Of a stretch of DNA of 64,000 nt, positions 37,858 to 46,261 are shown one piece after another (positions within the stretch are counted from its first letter, which is position 1; each line of letters opens with the position of its first letter). The notes under the pieces are model-generated. The model had not been told where the DNA came from. It searched no databases and saw only the letters and a list, made by a program, of their open reading frames with translations. Source of the DNA: an uncultured Fodinibius sp. (GTDB lineage: Bacteria; Bacteroidota; Rhodothermia; Balneolales; Balneolaceae); contig CAJXMW010000004.1 in NCBI GenBank assembly GCA_913056235.1, positions 186,001 through 250,000 on the forward strand, read 5' to 3'. The position numbers were made by a program, and so were the translations under genes.

Positions 37858-37951
37858 AATTCCTGATTAAATTGAGAGCCAAATATAGGCTTTATTATTT
37901 CAAATTAAATCTATTGATTTTCGGCTGGCCGGCTATTATCTTCAGGTCGTT

Positions 37952-38029
37952 ATGAAAAAATCAGCTCATAAAAATACCAATTGGTGGTGGCCTGTGAACA
38001 AACTTTCGCAGGCAGTGGCATTTTTATGA
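37952..38029 (+). CDS. trpL: trp leader peptide with three tandem tryptophan codons
   Basis: A 25-codon frame that starts MKKSAHKNTN, continues WWWP and ends VAFL before TGA at 38027. The three adjacent TGG codons (37982-37990) are the sensor of charged tRNA-Trp. It begins with ATG nine bases after an AGG. It sits 150 bp upstream of trpE, immediately before complementary RNA segments and a terminator, exactly as in a ribosome-mediated attenuator. Three adjacent Trp codons in such a short frame are very unlikely by chance, and everything around them fits. It is too short for ordinary gene finders. Confidence 0.85.
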   Translation: MKKSAHKNTNWWWPVNKLSQAVAFL

Positions 38030-38032
38030 GCT
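37963..38032 (+). promoter_or_regulatory. trp leader pause hairpin, segments 1 and 2
   Basis: AGCTCATAAAAAT (37963-37975) is the exact reverse complement of ATTTTTATGAGCT (38020-38032). It flanks the Trp codons with a 44-base interior, inside which GCCTG (37990-37994) pairs with CAGGC (38009-38013). A ribosome reading the leader would open this structure. Such a hairpin is expected to hold RNA polymerase in step with translation. Confidence 0.65.
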
Positions 38033-38065
38033 AGATTAATCTAAGACTTTCATAGAGCCCACTGC
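38012..38065 (+). promoter_or_regulatory. trp antiterminator pairing, segments 2 and 3
   Basis: GCAGTGG (38012-38018) is the exact reverse complement of CCACTGC (38059-38065), which overlaps the 5' arm of the terminator. If the ribosome stalls on the Trp codons at 37982-37990, 38012-38018 stays free and can sequester the terminator arm. If it reads on to the stop at 38027-38029, it covers 38012-38018 and the terminator forms. The logic is that of the classical trp attenuator; the pairing is read by eye. Confidence 0.7.
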
Positions 38066-38093
38066 AGGAAACTGGAGTGGGCTTTTTTATTTT
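38056..38093 (+). terminator. trp attenuator terminator, segments 3 and 4
   Basis: AGCCCACT (38056-38063) pairs exactly with AGTGGGCT (38076-38083); a second inner stem CAG-GAAA-CTG closes the loop. It is followed by a T-rich run to 38093. It lies between the leader-peptide stop and trpE, so it must be bypassed for the operon to be expressed. Confidence 0.85.
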
Positions 38094-38102
38094 AATTCGA
38101 AT

Positions 38103-38178: not shown

Positions 38179-39642
38179 ATGGATTTAAAAGAATTTGAAA
38201 AATTAGCAGGTGAATATACGGCTATACCAGTTTATCGAAGGCTGATGGCCGATGTGTTAACCCCCGTATCGTTATTTCTGTCATTACGCAAAGAAGCTGA
38301 CTATCCCTTTCTGCTGGAGTCGGTCGAGGGCGGAGAACAGGTGGCGCGATATTCATTTTTGGGACGCAATCCTTACCAAGTGCTTAAGTACGACGGAGAA
38401 GAAGTGAGCTTGCAAAGGGATGGAGAAAAAGAAACACTCGAACAGCCGTATTTTGAAGCACTGAAAGAGTTGACGACCCAGCACAGCGAGCCCGATATTC
38501 CTGACTTACCACGTCTTTCAGGTGGAGCTGTAGGATTTTCATCCTATGATACGGTACGCGAAGTGGAGCAGTTGGGCAGCCCGCCTGAGGACGATATCAA
38601 TATTCCGGAGGCCATCTGGGCGTTTTATGATGAGGTGTTTGCCTTCGATCATGTAAAGCAGCAGGTGATCATCATAAAAACGGTGTTCGTGGATGAAGAT
38701 GATGATGCCGGCGATCTATTTGCCCAAGCCCAGCAGCGACTGGATGAGCTGGAAGAGTTGGTGTATCAGCCGGAGCGTGCTGAAGGCTCCTTTTCCATCG
38801 ATCCGGATGCACTGACCAGCAATGTTTCGCAGCCGCAGTTCGAACAGATGGTGGAGCAGGCCAAAGAGTATATTTACGAAGGCGACATTTTCCAGGTAGT
38901 ACTATCGCAGCGATTTGAAACGGATTTCAGCGGAGATCGCTTTATGTTGTATCGCGCACTGCGGATGGTGAATCCATCGCCGTACTTGTTCTTTTTGGAT
39001 TTTGAAGATTTTGCGCTGGTGGGATCATCTCCGGAAGTGCTGGTTCGAGTGCAGGATGAGACCGCGCAGCTTTTGCCCATTGCGGGAACACGTCCCCGTG
39101 GCAAAACACCCGAAGAAGATCTGGAGCTGGAAGAAGATCTCAAAAACGATCCCAAAGAAATTGCCGAACACGTGATGTTGGTGGATCTGGGACGCAACGA
39201 CCTATCACGCGTCTGCAAGCCGTCCACGGTTAAGCCGGTCCGCGAGCAGGTGATCGAACGATATTCGCATGTAATGCACATTGTCTCGGATGTGAAAGGG
39301 CAGTTAGCCGAGGGGCAGACCTCAGTGGATGCGTTGATGCGATGTTTCCCTGCGGGCACGGTCAGCGGGGCGCCTAAAATTCGGGCGATGGAGATTATAG
39401 ATGAGCTAGAGCCGACAAAACGCGGTCCTTATGCTGGCGCAGTGGGCTACTTCGATTTTTCCGGCAACATGGATACCTGCATTGTAATTCGGACCATGAT
39501 GGTTACCGACTCAAAAGTGTATATTCAAGCGGGAGCCGGTATTGTAGCCGACAGTGATCCCACAAAAGAATATGTAGAAACGAAGGATAAGGCCAGTGCG
39601 CTCGTGGAAGCGCTCAGCGTGGCTCTGTCAATAACAGATTAA
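38179..39642 (+). CDS. trpE: Anthranilate synthase component I
   Basis: Converts chorismate (with ammonia from TrpG) to anthranilate. I start it at ATG 38179 (MDLKEFEKLAG; 487 aa). An upstream GTG in the same frame at 38077 would place its codons in the terminator T-run and is rejected. The feedback tryptophan-binding motif FLLESVEG lies near residues 44-51. Catalytic segments include GTRPRGKTPEED, HVMLVDLGRNDLSRV, FPAGTVSGAPKIRAMEII and GPYAGAVGYFDFSGNMDTC. It is the first structural gene after the attenuator. The product should be both feedback-inhibited and attenuated. Confidence 0.95.
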   Translation: MDLKEFEKLAGEYTAIPVYRRLMADVLTPVSLFLSLRKEADYPFLLESVEGGEQVARYSFLGRNPYQVLKYDGEEVSLQRDGEKETLEQPYFEALKELTTQHSEPDIPDLPRLSGGAVGFSSYDTVREVEQLGSPPEDDINIPEAIWAFYDEVFAFDHVKQQVIIIKTVFVDEDDDAGDLFAQAQQRLDELEELVYQPERAEGSFSIDPDALTSNVSQPQFEQMVEQAKEYIYEGDIFQVVLSQRFETDFSGDRFMLYRALRMVNPSPYLFFLDFEDFALVGSSPEVLVRVQDETAQLLPIAGTRPRGKTPEEDLELEEDLKNDPKEIAEHVMLVDLGRNDLSRVCKPSTVKPVREQVIERYSHVMHIVSDVKGQLAEGQTSVDALMRCFPAGTVSGAPKIRAMEIIDELEPTKRGPYAGAVGYFDFSGNMDTCIVIRTMMVTDSKVYIQAGAGIVADSDPTKEYVETKDKASALVEALSVALSITD

Positions 39643-39756: not shown

Positions 39757-40746
39757 ATGAAAACTATTTTATCCGGTATTCAATCCTCAGGAAAATTGCA
39801 CCTTGGCAACTATTTTGGTGCACTTCGCCAGCACATCCAGATGCAGGAGGAGGGTGATGCGTTCTTTTTTATCGCTAATTATCACTCGCTGACCTCTATT
39901 AATGATGGCAAGGAAATCCATCAAAACACCATTGATGTAGCTTTGGATTACCTGGCCCTAGGGCTCGATCCCGAGAAGGCGACCTTTTTCGTACAGAGTG
40001 ATGTTCCCCAGCATGCCGAACTGGCCTGGATTTTGGGTACCTTTTGTCCCGTTAGCCTGATGGAAAAGGGCGTAGCGTATAAGGATAAAGTAGCGCAGGG
40101 ATTGAATCCCAACATAGGATTGTTTACCTATCCGATATTACAGGCCGCTGACATCCTGATGTATAATGCCGACGTGGTACCGGTGGGGCAGGATCAAAAA
40201 CAGAATATTGAGATTTGCCGTGATTTGGCCGGCAAGTTTAATCATAATTATGGGGATGAGTATTTGAAGCTGCCGGAGCCGCATATCCTTGACTCAGTGG
40301 CGGTTGTGCCTGGAACTGATGGACGAAAGATGAGCAAATCGTACGGCAACACCATCGGTATTTTTGATGAAGGGAAGGAGCTTAAAAAGAAGGTAATGTC
40401 CATTGAAACGGATTCGACGCCGTTGGATGAACCTAAAGATCCTGAAAATTGCAATGTATTTGCGCTGATCAAGCTATTTGCCGACGAAGAGAAACAGAAT
40501 GAGATTGCTGAAAAGTACCGTGCCGGTGGCTATGGCTATGGACATGCCAAGAAGGAGTTACTGGGCATGATTGAGGAATACTTTGCTGAGGCACGAGCCA
40601 AGCGCAAGGAGCTCGAGCAGGATCTTGATACCGTTCGGGATATCCTTAAAGAGGGCGGCAAGAAAGCCCGAAAGCGTGCTGAGAAAGTGATGGAGCCCGT
40701 CCGGGAGGTTACGGGTCTGTTTAAGTCATATGATTTTACGAGTTAA
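39757..40746 (+). CDS. trpS: Tryptophanyl-tRNA synthetase
   Basis: Class Ic synthetase of 329 aa that charges tRNA-Trp. The HIGH-type motif is SSGKLHLGNYFGALRQH (about 8-24). The KMSKS motif is exact in GRKMSKSYGNT (about 193-203). A specificity segment VGQDQKQNIEICRDLA and a basic C-terminus are present. It lies between trpE and trpG in the same orientation, so charging capacity and tryptophan synthesis share a transcript unless the 115-bp gap, which holds a palindromic element, carries its own promoter. Confidence 0.95.
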   Translation: MKTILSGIQSSGKLHLGNYFGALRQHIQMQEEGDAFFFIANYHSLTSINDGKEIHQNTIDVALDYLALGLDPEKATFFVQSDVPQHAELAWILGTFCPVSLMEKGVAYKDKVAQGLNPNIGLFTYPILQAADILMYNADVVPVGQDQKQNIEICRDLAGKFNHNYGDEYLKLPEPHILDSVAVVPGTDGRKMSKSYGNTIGIFDEGKELKKKVMSIETDSTPLDEPKDPENCNVFALIKLFADEEKQNEIAEKYRAGGYGYGHAKKELLGMIEEYFAEARAKRKELEQDLDTVRDILKEGGKKARKRAEKVMEPVREVTGLFKSYDFTS

Positions 40747-40857: not shown

Positions 40858-41454
40858 ATGATCCTAATAATCGACAATTACGATTCTTTTACCTATAACC
40901 TGGTCCACATCGTGGCGGAGTATAGCGATGATTACAAAGTAGTCCGCAATGATGCGCTGACTGTTGAGGAGGTACGGGAACTGAATCCCGACAAAATTCT
41001 TATTTCTCCCGGTCCGGGCCGTCCGGCCGATGCAGGTATAACCGAACCGTTGATCAAAGAGTTGGGAGCAGAGACTCCTATTTTAGGCGTTTGTCTTGGT
41101 CACCAAGCGATAGGAGAGGTCTTTGGCGGACAGGTCATTCATGCCCCAAAACTGATGCATGGGAAAACTTCCCAGATCAGCCATGACGGCCAATCAGTCT
41201 TTCAAAATATTCCCAATAACTTTACCGCCACGCGTTATCACTCACTTGTGCTGGATCCCAATCAGATTCCCGAGGAGCTGGTAGTTTCGGCCCGTAGTGA
41301 TGACGATGTAATTATGGGACTGCGCCATTGTGAATATCCCATTGAGGGCATTCAGTTTCACCCGGAAAGTATTCTCACCAAAGAAGGTCCGGGACTTATT
41401 AAGAACTGGATTTTACAGACTAAAAAAGAATTTCAATCCATAGCAAAATCGTAA
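40858..41454 (+). CDS. trpG: Anthranilate synthase component II (glutamine amidotransferase)
   Basis: Supplies ammonia to TrpE. 198 aa. Class-I amidotransferase motifs are DNYDSFTYNL at the start, ISPGPGRPADAGIT (about 50-63), the catalytic Cys in GVCLGHQAIGEVFGG (about 80-94) and the His-Glu pair in IQFHPESILT (about 168-177). The 111-bp gap from trpS contains a small GTTCC-TTT-GGAAC stem. It is followed by trpD after 2 bp. Confidence 0.95.
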   Translation: MILIIDNYDSFTYNLVHIVAEYSDDYKVVRNDALTVEEVRELNPDKILISPGPGRPADAGITEPLIKELGAETPILGVCLGHQAIGEVFGGQVIHAPKLMHGKTSQISHDGQSVFQNIPNNFTATRYHSLVLDPNQIPEELVVSARSDDDVIMGLRHCEYPIEGIQFHPESILTKEGPGLIKNWILQTKKEFQSIAKS

Positions 41455-41456
41455 CA

Positions 41457-42497
41457 ATGACTGACTTTAAACCGATTTTAGAGAAACTGGCCCAGCGTCA
41501 GGATTTAACATCTAAAGAAGCCCAAGAGGTTCTGCAGGGAATTATTAATGGTGATATGGGGGTCGAAAAAACGACCGCCTTTTTGCTGGGGATGCGCTCC
41601 AAAGGGGAGACTATTGAGGAGCTTACCGCCTTTGTAAAGGTGATGCGTGATGCGGCTGTGCACCCAGAGGTTGACGTCGAAGGTGCCGTAGATTTATGCG
41701 GAACCGGCGGCGACAATTTGGGTACTTTTAATATATCTACGGCGGCGATGTTTGTCGTGGCCGGTGCAGGTGTGCCGGTTCTCAAGCACGGCAATCGCAG
41801 CGTCTCCAGTAAAAGTGGCAGTGCTGATGTGTTAGAAGCACTAGATATTGTTGCTACGCTTCATAAAGAGCAGATTGAGCAGGTTTTTGAGGAAATTCAG
41901 GCCTGTTTTATGATTGCTCCCAACTTCCACCCGTCGATGAAGCATGTGATGCCTGCGCGCCAGATTTTGGGCATCCGATCGTTTTTCAACACGATGGGAC
42001 CATTGCTGAATCCCGCAGGGGTTCGCCGACAGGTCGTGGGTGCCTTTGATAATCGTACAGCTAGGCAAATCGCTCAAATCTTGTCGAATCTCGATTCTGA
42101 GCGTGTTTATAGCGTTCACTCCCGTGACGGACTGGATGAATTCAGCTTGACGGCACCGACTTTTGTCCATGAGATTGAAAACAATAAATACGTTGGTGAA
42201 GAAGAATTCAATGCGGCTTCATTGGGATTTGATCCCGTGAGCCTGCAAGATCTACAGGGCGGTGATCGTTTCTACAATGCCAATATCATTCGCTCCGTGC
42301 TCGAGGGGAAAGGCGAACCGGCGCACCGCAATATTATATTGTTAAATGCAACTTTTGGGATTCATGTCTCCGGTAAGACTGATTCATTAGAAGAGGCCAA
42401 ACAGATGGCAGAGGAAAGTATTGATTCGGGCGCAGCTCTAAAGAAGGTAGAGCGCATGAGCGAAGTAACCAATGACATCATGGAATCCGCTGGATAA
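41457..42497 (+). CDS. trpD: Anthranilate phosphoribosyltransferase
   Basis: Transfers phosphoribose from PRPP to anthranilate. 346 aa. The PRPP loop CGTGGDNLGTFNISTA (about 82-97), KHGNRSVSSKSGSADVLEAL (about 108-127) and the anthranilate-site MKHVMPARQILGIRSFFNTM segment are all standard. It begins 2 bp after trpG and ends 2 bp before trpC. Confidence 0.95.
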   Translation: MTDFKPILEKLAQRQDLTSKEAQEVLQGIINGDMGVEKTTAFLLGMRSKGETIEELTAFVKVMRDAAVHPEVDVEGAVDLCGTGGDNLGTFNISTAAMFVVAGAGVPVLKHGNRSVSSKSGSADVLEALDIVATLHKEQIEQVFEEIQACFMIAPNFHPSMKHVMPARQILGIRSFFNTMGPLLNPAGVRRQVVGAFDNRTARQIAQILSNLDSERVYSVHSRDGLDEFSLTAPTFVHEIENNKYVGEEEFNAASLGFDPVSLQDLQGGDRFYNANIIRSVLEGKGEPAHRNIILLNATFGIHVSGKTDSLEEAKQMAEESIDSGAALKKVERMSEVTNDIMESAG

Positions 42498-42499
42498 TT

Positions 42500-43315
42500 A
42501 TGGCAAATATTCTTGAAGAAATAGTTGAGCAAACTACTTTGGATCTCAAAAAGCGTAAGCGTAAAGTAAGCTTTAATGATTTGGGATCCATGGAGCTATA
42601 TGAGCAGCCCTCGAAAAATTTTAAGAATGCCTTACAGCTTGAACAGGATGTTGCCATTATTGCCGAGATTAAGAAGGCTTCTCCCTCTAAAGGATTGATT
42701 CGAAAGGATTTTGATCCGCAGAAAATAGCCGGTCAGTACCAGGAGGGCGGAGCATCAGCCATTTCTGTATTGACCGATGAGCCAGCTTTTCAAGGTAGTC
42801 TGGAGTACCTGGAAATTGCTTCAAGGGAAGTAGAGATTCCTTTGTTACGCAAAGATTTTATTATTGATCCATATCAAGTAAAGGAAGCAAAGGCTTTTGG
42901 GGCAGATGCGGTATTACTAATTGCCACGATTACCGATGGACATCAATTAGAGGAACTGCTTCATGCCACCGAAGAGTTTGGGATCCAGGCATTGGTGGAA
43001 TGTTATTCGGAGGATGATCTGCAATATGTTAACTTTGAGCAGGTAGATATCCTGGGCGTGAATAATCGCGACTTGAAGACGTTCAAAGTAGACTTGCATC
43101 GCGGGATCGAGTTGCTGCACAAGGCACCGGAAGGAACGGTCGTGGTCTCCGAAAGTGGATTAAGCAAGCCAAAGGACTTACAACTCCTTTTTGATGAAGG
43201 AATTCATGCCGCTTTAATTGGCGAACATTTTATGCGTCAGCCTGATCCGGGCGAAGCGGTTACGAACATGAAATCAAAATTACAGGAACTAATTACACAG
43301 AAAACAGAAGATTAA
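42500..43315 (+). CDS. trpC: Indole-3-glycerol-phosphate synthase
   Basis: TIM-barrel enzyme closing the indole ring. 271 aa. Catalytic motifs are IAEIKKASPSKGLIR (Glu and Lys, about 52-66), LLRKDFIIDPYQV (about 116-128), ALVECYSEDD, LGVNNRDLKTFKVDL and VVSESGLSKPKDL. Not fused to trpF. It ends directly before the trpF start with no spacer. Confidence 0.95.
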   Translation: MANILEEIVEQTTLDLKKRKRKVSFNDLGSMELYEQPSKNFKNALQLEQDVAIIAEIKKASPSKGLIRKDFDPQKIAGQYQEGGASAISVLTDEPAFQGSLEYLEIASREVEIPLLRKDFIIDPYQVKEAKAFGADAVLLIATITDGHQLEELLHATEEFGIQALVECYSEDDLQYVNFEQVDILGVNNRDLKTFKVDLHRGIELLHKAPEGTVVVSESGLSKPKDLQLLFDEGIHAALIGEHFMRQPDPGEAVTNMKSKLQELITQKTED

Positions 43316-43990
43316 ATGTTTGCAGATCCGGAAGAACGAACGAAAGTTAAAATTTGTGGAATTACCTCACTCGAAGATGCTCGGTTTGTGTCTGGCGCGC
43401 TGGCACATTATATGGGTTTCATCTTCTACGAAAATAGTCCACGTCATGTGAGTCCTGCCAAAGCGGGAGCCATGATCAATTGGCTGCACGGACCAGAATG
43501 TGTGGGCGTATTTGTCAATCAGCCGCTGGATGATGTGAATATGATTGGCCGCCAGACCGGTATCGACTACGTGCAGTTGCATGGCAATGAAAATCCTGAT
43601 TACTGCTCTCTGGTGGATAAACCGATTATCAAGGCCATTCACGTAGAGGAAGAGGATACTGCATCTGACTTAAACGAACGTATTGAACCATATCTCGATC
43701 ATATTGAGTACCTGCTTTTTGATACGAAGATCGAAGGCAAATGGGGCGGCACGGGGCAAACATTTGACTGGTCAATCCTGGATGAGGTAGCGCAGGGCGT
43801 ATCGTACTTTTTGTCCGGTGGATTGAATCCTGGGAATATTCGCCAGGCCTGCAAGCAGGTTCATCCCTATGCAGTGGATATTTCAAGTGGACTGGAAGCT
43901 AAGCCGGGTGTTAAAGATTTTGACAAAGTAGAAGCATTTATGGAAGAAATGCGTGATATCTGGGACAAGCAGGAGATGGGGGACTTATAA
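43316..43990 (+). CDS. trpF: Phosphoribosylanthranilate isomerase
   Basis: Amadori isomerisation step, TIM barrel of 224 aa. The catalytic Cys is in VKICGITSLEDA (about 10-21), followed by MGFIFYENSPRHV. The Asp region is FDTKIEGKWGGTGQTFDWS (about 138-156), and the phosphate site FLSGGLNPGNI. It is longer at the C-terminus than E. coli TrpF by a short helix. It abuts trpC. The 140-bp gap to trpB carries another palindromic element. Confidence 0.93.
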   Translation: MFADPEERTKVKICGITSLEDARFVSGALAHYMGFIFYENSPRHVSPAKAGAMINWLHGPECVGVFVNQPLDDVNMIGRQTGIDYVQLHGNENPDYCSLVDKPIIKAIHVEEEDTASDLNERIEPYLDHIEYLLFDTKIEGKWGGTGQTFDWSILDEVAQGVSYFLSGGLNPGNIRQACKQVHPYAVDISSGLEAKPGVKDFDKVEAFMEEMRDIWDKQEMGDL

Positions 43991-44001
43991 AAGCAGCGAT
44001 C

Positions 44002-44057
44002 AGCTGTCAGGTATCAGACATCAGAAAACGCTTGCTGAAAACTGAAGACTGATAGCT
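44002..44057. repeat. Palindromic CAGCTGTCAG...CTGATAGCT element between trpF and trpB
   Basis: AGCTGTCAG (44002-44010) and CTGATAGCT (44049-44057) pair with one G-T wobble. Between them are several repeated ATCAG and CTGAA units. It is the third palindromic block inside the trp operon. Confidence 0.45.
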
Positions 44058-44130
44058 TAAGTTGAGAAAATTTTGAAAAGTAAATTGTCCTGGATCATTT
44101 CAGGATTTCTAAAAACTGAGTTTCAAAACA

Positions 44131-45324
44131 ATGAAATACGATTTACCAACTAAAGAAGGATATTTTGGCGATTTCGGCGGCAGGTTTGTCCCTGAAATTT
44201 TGATACCAGTTCTTGAGGAACTCGAAGAAGCTTACAACGAGGCTTGGGCGGATGATACATTTCGTGAGCAGTTCCATCATCTCCTGGAGGAATATGTGGG
44301 ACGTCCGACAAAATTAACTTATGCCAATCGACTGACTGATCACTACGGCAAGGCGAAAATTTACCTCAAGCGGGAAGATCTCTGTCACACCGGTGCCCAC
44401 AAAATTAATAATGCTATTGGACAGATTTTGCTGGCGCAGCGTATGGGCAAGGATCGCATTATTGCCGAGACGGGAGCCGGTCAGCATGGGGTGGCAACCG
44501 CCACGGCCTGCGCCAAGTTTGGCGTCGATTGCATCGTGTACATGGGCGCCGAAGATATGGAGCGTCAAAAGCTGAATGTAGAGCGTATGCGACTGCTTGG
44601 CACCGAAGTGCGTCCTGTAACTAGTGGCTCCCAAACGCTCAAGGATGCTACCAACGAAGCCATCCGCGACTGGGTGACCAATGTAGAGGATACCTTCTAC
44701 ATTATCGGCTCGGTAGTGGGACCGCATCCTTATCCAAAGATGGTGCGTAATTTTCACCGTGTAATTGGAGATGAGACCCGAAGGCAGTTGCAGGAAGCCG
44801 AGGGACGCGAAACGCCCGATCATCTGCTGGCTTGTGTAGGGGGAGGTTCCAATGCAATGGGAATTTTCTATCCTTTTATTGAGGACGAGTCAGTGAAGAT
44901 GTACGGCCTGGAAGCCGCCGGTTTAGGTGCCGATACCGATGAGACGGCTGCTACACTTACAATTGGCCAGCCCGGTGTTTTACATGGATCTATGAGTTAT
45001 TTACTTCACAATTCCGAGGGGCAAATTCAACTGGCGCATTCTATTTCAGCGGGACTTGATTACCCGGGTATTGGTCCCGAGCACTCGTACCTGCATGACA
45101 GCAAGCGCGTGAATTATATCAGCATTACCGATGACCAAGCGATGGAAGGCGTGAAGCTGCTTTCAGAGACCGAAGGCATCATTCCAGCTTTGGAGACCGC
45201 ACATGCCGTGGCTTATCTTGATGAGTTGATGCCCAAGACATCCAAAGACGAAATTGTAGTGCTCAACTGCTCCGGCCGCGGCGACAAGGATATGGGCACG
45301 ATTTCAAAGAATATAGACCATTGA
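44131..45324 (+). CDS. trpB: Tryptophan synthase beta chain
   Basis: PLP enzyme joining indole and serine. 397 aa, TrpB1 class. Substrate-binding and PLP lysine segment [13 protein letters not shown] (Lys91), the [13 protein letters not shown] loop with the catalytic Glu (about residue 113), the phosphate loop [12 protein letters not shown] and the closing [15 protein letters not shown]. The ammonium-type GIGPEHSYL motif is also seen. It lies 140 bp after trpF, with trpA 124 bp downstream. Confidence 0.95.
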
Positions 45325-45363
45325 TCAAACAGATTATTTCGGATTAGAAACTTTAAACCAATA

Positions 45364-45429
45364 TGTCATCCTGAATTCAGGCTTCCTAGCTGCCGGTATA
45401 TCGGTGAAGTAGGCCTTGTTCCAGGATCT
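45364..45429. repeat. TGTCATxCTGAA-type palindromic element between trpB and trpA
   Basis: TGTCATCCTGAATTCAGG opens the block and CCAGGATCT closes it, so the ends are inverted relative to each other. CCTGAATTCAGG is itself a 12-bp palindrome. A shorter relative lies at 54813-54840. Confidence 0.55.
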
Positions 45430-45448
45430 TTTAAAAAACTGATTATTA

Positions 45449-46261
45449 ATGATTAAGACTGACAATCGCATTTCGCAACTTTTTGAACGGCACGAGGGCT
45501 CCGAAAAAATTATGAGCCTATTTCTAACGGCTGGCTATCCCGATCCGGAGGCTACTGTTGATCTCATTCTTGGATTTGAGGACAACGGTGTAGACATGGT
45601 GGAGCTGGGGATGCCGTTTAGCGATCCGTTGGCCGATGGTCCCACCATCCAATATTCCAGCAATAAAGCCATTGAGCAAGGTATTACAATGGCAAAAATC
45701 ATGGAGATCGTAGAGCGGGTTCGTGAGAAATCTGATATACCGATTATTCTGATGGGCTATATTAATCCCGTGTTGCGCTATGGCGTTGAGCGATTTTGCC
45801 AAGATGCTGCCAAGGCCGGTGTCGATGGGTTGATTATCCCGGATATTCCCATCGAAGAGTCGGGCATTTTGTCTGATCAGGCTGAGAAAAATGGACTGCC
45901 AATCATTTACCTGGTGGCACCGAATACTTCCGATGAACGAATGCGAAAGATTGATAAAGCTTCACAAGGATTTGTCTACTGCGTATCGGTCACGGGGGTT
46001 ACGGGCGCTCGCGAAGGGGATGAAGTGGCGCAGTCGGTGCAGCGGTTTATTGAGCGCGTGAAAGCCAATGTGACCCATAACCCGAAAATGGTCGGTTTCG
46101 GCATCAAATCCCACGAAGATGCCCAGCGCATTGCGGCCGATATGGACGGCTTTATTGTGGGAAGTGCACTTATCGATACCATCCGCGAGCACTATCCGGA
46201 GCAGGGGTGGAAGGATGAAGTGTTTGCTTTTGTTAGAGACTTGAAGTATGGTAAGAGGTAA
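45449..46261 (+). CDS. trpA: Tryptophan synthase alpha chain
   Basis: Cleaves indole-glycerol phosphate to indole, which is channelled to TrpB. 270 aa TIM barrel. The catalytic Glu and Asp lie in VELGMPFSDPLADGPTIQ (about 50-67). The phosphate site is VGFGIKSHEDAQRI and the later VGSALIDTI. VYCVSVTGVTGAREG marks loop 6. It is the last trp gene. The DUF4837 lipoprotein gene follows after 24 bp. Confidence 0.95.
   Translation: MIKTDNRISQLFERHEGSEKIMSLFLTAGYPDPEATVDLILGFEDNGVDMVELGMPFSDPLADGPTIQYSSNKAIEQGITMAKIMEIVERVREKSDIPIILMGYINPVLRYGVERFCQDAAKAGVDGLIIPDIPIEESGILSDQAEKNGLPIIYLVAPNTSDERMRKIDKASQGFVYCVSVTGVTGAREGDEVAQSVQRFIERVKANVTHNPKMVGFGIKSHEDAQRIAADMDGFIVGSALIDTIREHYPEQGWKDEVFAFVRDLKYGKR

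Follow-up and report, generated by a model that had tools for sequence, protein, structure and literature searches.

A predicted trp attenuator of the classical, ribosome-mediated kind upstream of trpE in the Balneolales

Introduction

The trpL leader of E. coli (Rfam RF00513, Trp_leader) combines a short leader peptide that contains tandem Trp codons with the 1:2, 2:3 and 3:4 pairings of the leader RNA and a U-tailed terminator. In Sinorhizobium meliloti, the trp attenuator RNA, rnTrpL, begins at the ATG of trpL and is therefore leaderless (PMC7298713). Attenuators of the Actinobacteria (Corynebacterium, Streptomyces) are similarly characterized by leader peptides with double or triple UGG codons and by GC-rich, U-tailed terminators, and trpS has a separate attenuator in that phylum (PMC1262725). 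An additional system that resembles these leaders in layout is the trpB motif (RF04312), a riboswitch candidate described from Firmicutes and Fusobacteria, which consists of a hairpin and a terminator and carries its antiterminator strand on the right shoulder of the former (PMC11109978).

Within the phylum of the organism studied here, a study on Flavobacterium psychrophilum, a member of a different class in the GTDB taxonomy, speaks of 'strong clues' of leader-peptide attenuation upstream of amino-acid operons (PMC9723704). A search of the literature on Balneolota, Rhodothermota and Ignavibacteria found no worked-out trp attenuator, and an earlier survey-level prediction is possible.

The locus described here lies in a window of 64,000 nucleotides, which is the whole stretch of DNA that was analysed, from an uncultured Fodinibius sp. 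of the family Balneolaceae (contig CAJXMW010000004.1, positions 186,001 to 250,000). Judged from its sequence and from comparison with relatives, its trp leader very probably works by classical ribosome-mediated transcription attenuation. It shares with E. coli trpL the short leader peptide, the tandem Trp codons, the three alternative pairings, the U-tailed terminator and the response to a masking ribosome, but differs in that strand 1 follows the Trp codons, an outer stem surrounds them, and trpS is part of the downstream gene cluster. The last feature also sets it apart from the Actinobacteria, while rnTrpL differs in belonging to an alphaproteobacterium, in its leader of 14 amino acids and in controlling only trpE(G). 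The original prediction for this locus had held that attenuation is best known in gammaproteobacteria and had been aware of no case in this phylum; the mechanism it proposed is supported, and its scope has to be widened, since such attenuation is documented in alphaproteobacteria and Actinobacteria and the F. psychrophilum work offers clues to it (PMC9723704).

Architecture of the leader

A check of the sequence recovered, to the base, all of the elements that the original prediction had named, including the leader open reading frame with its triplet of Trp codons, the exactly complementary 7-base antiterminator pairing, the U-tailed terminator and the 13-bp exact inverted repeat that encloses the Trp codons (Table 1). 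Strand 3 forms part of the 5' arm of the terminator, the stem of which spans 38057-38082. Folding of positions 37940-38100 yielded -61.7 kcal/mol (z = -7.4), and none of 200 shuffled sequences folded as well. Against dinucleotide shuffles, the 2:3 pairing of the window reached p = 0.006 and the outer stem 0:0' p = 0.0005. Furthermore, the fold contains a 9-bp hairpin adjoining the Trp codons, which was absent from the original prediction; this hairpin is the real 1:2 stem, and the antiterminator strand has its initial two bases within it.

Table 1. Features of the trp leader and of the genes that follow it (positions within the window).
Feature	Position	Strand	Sequence, detail and evidence
Bacteroidota-type promoter	37914-37944	+	TTGATTTT at 37914-37921 and TATCTTCA at 37937-37944; comparison of 77 loci
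trpL leader ORF	37952-38029	+	MKKSAHKNTNWWWPVNKLSQAVAFL; ATG 37952, stop TGA 38027-38029; 25 codons plus stop; homologous leaders in relatives
Strand 0 of outer stem	37963-37975	+	AGCTCATAAAAAT, codons 4-8; pairs with 38020-38032, 13 bp exact; p = 0.0005; coevolves
Sensor, TGG TGG TGG	37982-37990	+	three Trp codons; sequence check, Trp clusters in relatives
Strand 1 of 1:2 hairpin	37990-37998	+	directly 3' of the Trp codons; fold, paired changes within the genus
3' arm of 1:2 hairpin	38005-38013	+	overlaps strand 2 by two bases at the start of the latter; fold, pair counts
Strand 2, antiterminator arm	38012-38018	+	GCAGTGG, exact complement of 38059-38065; swap test, pair counts
Strand 0' of outer stem	38020-38032	+	ATTTTTATGAGCT, partner of strand 0; coevolution, shuffle test
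Strand 3	38059-38065	+	CCACTGC, partner of strand 2 (antiterminator) or 4 (terminator); swap test, pair counts
Intrinsic terminator	38057-38088	+	GCCCACT 38057-38063 / AGTGGGC 38076-38082, then T6 38083-38088
trpE	38179-39642	+	anthranilate synthase component I; Pfam PF04715, PF00425
trpS	39757-40746	+	tryptophanyl-tRNA synthetase, between trpE and trpG; Pfam PF00579
trpG, trpD, trpC, trpF, trpB, trpA	40858-46261	+	Pfam matches

Positions 38040-38056, which link the outer stem to strand 3, carry a AAAGAATTTT-like stretch that recurs in many genera in the alignment and is possibly a pause site. No Rfam family, T-boxes and riboswitches included, reached its gathering score anywhere in the window; the best-scoring families, RF00513 with 22.4 bits and RF04312 with 30.6 bits, stayed below their gathering scores of 41 and 59, respectively.

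A promoter next to the leader start codon

A sigma-70 consensus scan detected no promoter on the forward strand, and the leader terminator escaped its terminator rule. Comparison of loci of relatives revealed instead a Bacteroidota-type motif, TTG(A/C)..TTT followed by TAnnTT, in 77 of 77 loci, with a distance from TTG to TA of 23 in every one of them (TTG-N20-TAnnTT). The TAnnTT element is positioned 11-16 nt upstream of the leader ATG in 75 of the 77, and a search of the 4-Mb genome for two spellings of the promoter-plus-ATG pattern gave a single hit, at the trp leader. That a promoter abuts the leader ATG had not been part of the original prediction.

The position of the motif predicts a transcription start at about 37949 and hence a 5' UTR of 3 nt in the window, as compared with 26 nt in E. 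coli trpL; for nearly all of the 77 loci, the predicted length is 0-4 nt. This prediction is based on the sigma-A box of F. psychrophilum, TAnnTTTG at -12 to -5, in which species leaderless mRNAs are put at only 5.5% (PMC9723704); in B. thetaiotaomicron, approximately 3.7% of 5' UTRs are shorter than 10 nt (PMC7366714). With a promoter placed in this manner, the leader mRNA is likely to be near-leaderless, for which trpL of S. meliloti provides a precedent (PMC7298713).

Conservation among relatives

By TrpE, the closest named relatives are the Balneolaceae genera Gracilimonas, Rhodohalobacter and Balneola (70-73%). Sequences upstream of trpE were collected from genomes of the family and from other Balneolales, with the genera numbered g1-g21, and were parsed for an in-frame start codon, a Trp cluster and a U-tailed hairpin located 40-120 nt further on. 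A clustered-Trp leader and a terminator with conserved spacing precede trpE in 77 of 78 Balneolales loci, which represent 23 genus-level groups. The cluster is nearly always WWW, with WCW (L086, L122), WRW (L094) and WW as rare variants, and a U tract of at least five T follows a GC-rich stem in all parsed loci. Counting from the promoter, the earliest ATG opens a frame that includes the Trp codons in 73 of the 77 loci; of the remaining four, two use GTG or TTG as start codon and two contain an additional ATG that overlaps.

The GCAGTGG of strand 2 is constant despite a reading frame that varies across it (QAVA in g1, AVESL in g11, SSG or NSG in g2, g3 and g10), and the leaders of L088, L112, L131 and L132 even end before it, so that strand 2 is conserved as RNA and not as peptide. 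As a contrast set, approximately 50 trpE loci of cyanobacteria, planctomycetes, Nitrospirota and others were inspected, among which a convincing WWW frame was present only in L053.

All six loci taken from the order outside this family carry WW leaders. In the same class, such leaders precede about 14-16 of 20 sampled loci, and in families including the Melioribacteraceae (Ignavibacteria) most loci show a WWW or WWWW leader together with a terminator. All of these counts come from one ORF scan and inspection, not from a tree. A TAnnTT promoter-like motif is also found near the leader ATG in loci of these class-level and Ignavibacteria types, and loci sampled from families f17, f20, f23, f30, f36 and f37 showed no such leader.

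Some leaders depart from the common form. In genus g20 (L162, L163), a minimal leader of 13-14 residues, MQTQHSNTNAWWR or MMQIQHSTTNAWWR, accompanies the terminator, of which the loop and 3' arm, rather than the 5' arm, seem to be the partners of a possible antiterminator. Several loci of the same class and of Ignavibacteria type, including L190, L191, L193, L226, L227 and L239, have Tyr or Phe codons ahead of the Trp run (AHYYGWWW, TYY...WWWW), which perhaps reflects sensing of other aromatic amino acids.

A second leader of the same design, with Cys codons (MRGFNYIYNFCSMCMAMQCMYCCCMKTAEGSGCDSIT), is located in the same genome at about 127150-127330 of the minus strand (G000:C5, L262), upstream of a gene for a rhodanese-type sulfurtransferase, and has relatives in L253, L254 and L255. 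In a terminator there, either CCCGCTGCC or CCCACTACC can serve as the pairing partner of its strand 2, GGTAGTGGG. The leader is probably a cysteine attenuator. No run of five His codons exists in the genome, and a non-exhaustive search near leuA, hisG and pheA-type genes found only apparent chance runs.

Coevolution of the paired strands

The stems were compared by a swap test in which each strand was paired either with the partner from its own locus or with those of loci in other genera. Among the 23 genera, the own partner was better for 2:3 in 19 (mean -14.4 versus -12.6 kcal/mol, p = 3e-4), for 1:2 likewise in 19 (p = 2e-4), and for 0:0' in 21 (-10.5 versus -6.8, p = 8e-6). Pair counts gave 23 cells with both sides changed for 2:3, compared to 7.5 in shuffles, and 22 for 3:4, compared to 4.5, with 98% of the 3:4 cells paired. 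Within the genus of the window, 0:0' and 1:2 contributed 13 cells changed on both sides versus 4.8, which is above slid versions of the stems, and five of the nine 1:2 pairs have changed on both sides. In addition, RNAalifold recovered the same 0:0', 1:2 and 3:4 stems in this genus unprompted, and a model built from the alignment ranked the locus first in 12 of 12 genomes of the genus, the same loci having been in its training set. The comparison with relatives on which the original prediction had staked itself thus speaks for it, as leaders are present in nearly all of the Balneolales loci and their stems, the 13-bp outer repeat included, coevolve.

Since the outer stem is the longest one, is significant in the window at the shuffle level given above and coevolves, it might itself be the main regulatory element; strand 2 lies in its loop, so that 0:0' and 2:3 together would constitute a pseudoknot. 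This explanation is improbable, because 0:0' beats dinucleotide shuffles at p<0.05 in 27 of 77 loci as opposed to 75 of 77 for 2:3, which makes it auxiliary outside this genus. On the evidence of these comparisons, the antiterminator pairing 2:3 of the attenuator is general, and the outer stem is a real structure that is strong within this genus and becomes weaker or variable outside it.

Effect of ribosome position on the fold

The leaders were truncated just behind strand 3 and folded with a ribosome mask that reached 14 nt behind the P site and 12 nt beyond the A site. With the mask on the Trp codons, which corresponds to a stalled ribosome, the 2:3 pairing forms in 77 of 77 loci. With the mask at the stop codon it forms in none of the 77, a result that is partly by construction, as the mask covers strand 2; a spacing test placed strand 2 inside the footprint of a ribosome at the stop codon in 77 of 77 loci. 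The predicted spacing rule, by which a stall frees strand 2 and a ribosome at the stop covers it, therefore extends to all of the parsed loci. The E. coli trpL control behaves in the same way, with 2:3 at 0.00 when free of ribosomes, 0.36 and 0.96 when stalled at the first and second Trp codon, respectively, and 0.00 at the stop.

When no ribosome is present, 2:3 exceeds 0.5 in 27 of the 77 loci and is close to zero in the inspected members of the genus of the window, where 0:0' and 1:2 hide strand 2. Removal of 0:0' in these members raises 2:3 to about 0.6-0.9, for which reason 0:0' is regarded as a protecting stem. When the full-length RNA is folded thermodynamically, the terminator prevails in every case, as it does for the E. 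coli leader in the same procedure, so that the switch would rely on kinetics.

One genus bears on whether the Trp codons matter at all. The nine g19 genomes (L152-L160) are without the Trp leader and keep the terminator before trpE, so that the switch is dispensable there and other control is possible; the terminator might accordingly be constitutive or governed by a factor (a Trp-binding protein, a T-box or a riboswitch) with the Trp codons being incidental. Nevertheless, this is very improbable as an account of the present locus, given that the Trp-codon cluster is kept in 77 of 78 loci, that strand 2 is positioned by both the stop and the Trp codons, that no T-box match appears in Rfam at E values up to 1, and that the ribosome model accounts for every stem. 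A conserved CTAGTGTTTACCC-like stretch adjoins the retained terminator in g19.

The anatomy of the leader, its conservation, the coevolution of its stems and their spacing are direct results of the computations. The locus has every defining feature of a ribosome-mediated attenuator that can be read from sequence, its predicted working is E. coli-like, and it is assigned to this known kind of attenuator.

The downstream gene cluster

The genes downstream of the attenuator are arranged in the order trpE-trpS-trpG-trpD-trpC-trpF-trpB-trpA with gaps of approximately 110 nt between them, and the neighbouring gene upstream of the leader has the opposite orientation. In every Balneolales locus with enough flanking sequence (about 50 loci, g19 included), trpS follows trpE, and in the Ignavibacteria loci trpG, not trpS, is next after trpE. 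The trpS gene may be co-transcribed with the trp genes, in which case the attenuator would control the synthesis of the very enzyme on which the charging of its signal tRNA depends, and would raise it along with the pathway.

That the leader might instead act on translation or through Rho, by governing ribosome access to trpE or the loading of Rho, fits the many relatives in which only 5-15 nt separate the U tract from trpE and the stem may affect trpE translation, but is scarcely credible in view of the GC-rich stem and T run of all parsed loci and of the trpE gene of the window, which begins 90 nt past the U tract, outside the stems.

Proposed mechanism and implications

In the proposed transcription attenuation, polymerase would start within a few bases of the AUG, so that a ribosome could load on an almost leaderless transcript and trail the polymerase. 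When charged tRNA-Trp is scarce, the ribosome would stall on UGG UGG UGG and cover strands 0 and 1, leaving strand 2 free to pair with strand 3 once the latter is made; the terminator would then be blocked and the genes from trpE to trpA transcribed. When tRNA-Trp is charged, the ribosome would reach the stop codon and cover strand 2, strand 3 would pair with strand 4, and transcription would end at the U tract. Before any ribosome has loaded, or once it has been released, 0:0' and the nested 1:2 stem would hide strand 2, and termination would be the default state in this genus. Stalling and read-through, as well as the transcription start, the co-transcription of trpS and a protecting or timing role of 0:0', are the parts of the scheme that we infer.

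A broader and tentative proposal, which may well prove wrong, is that these leaders represent an ancient attenuator of Rhodothermia, Balneolia and Ignavibacteria with a promoter tied in position to the leader AUG and a message that is read leaderless. The outer stem, which the earliest codons form together with the stretch behind strand 2, would close after the polymerase has passed, such that only a promptly loaded ribosome decides the outcome. If true, it would imply tight coupling of transcription and translation in bacteria that rely little on Shine-Dalgarno sequences.

To conclude, the textbook trp attenuator is extended here, with strong comparative support, to a branch of bacteria for which no worked-out case was found. 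With trpS under its control, if co-transcribed, the attenuator would close a loop on the signal that is being sensed. Furthermore, attenuation needs a ribosome close behind RNA polymerase, and both coupling and near-leaderless initiation therefore become directly testable in this phylum.
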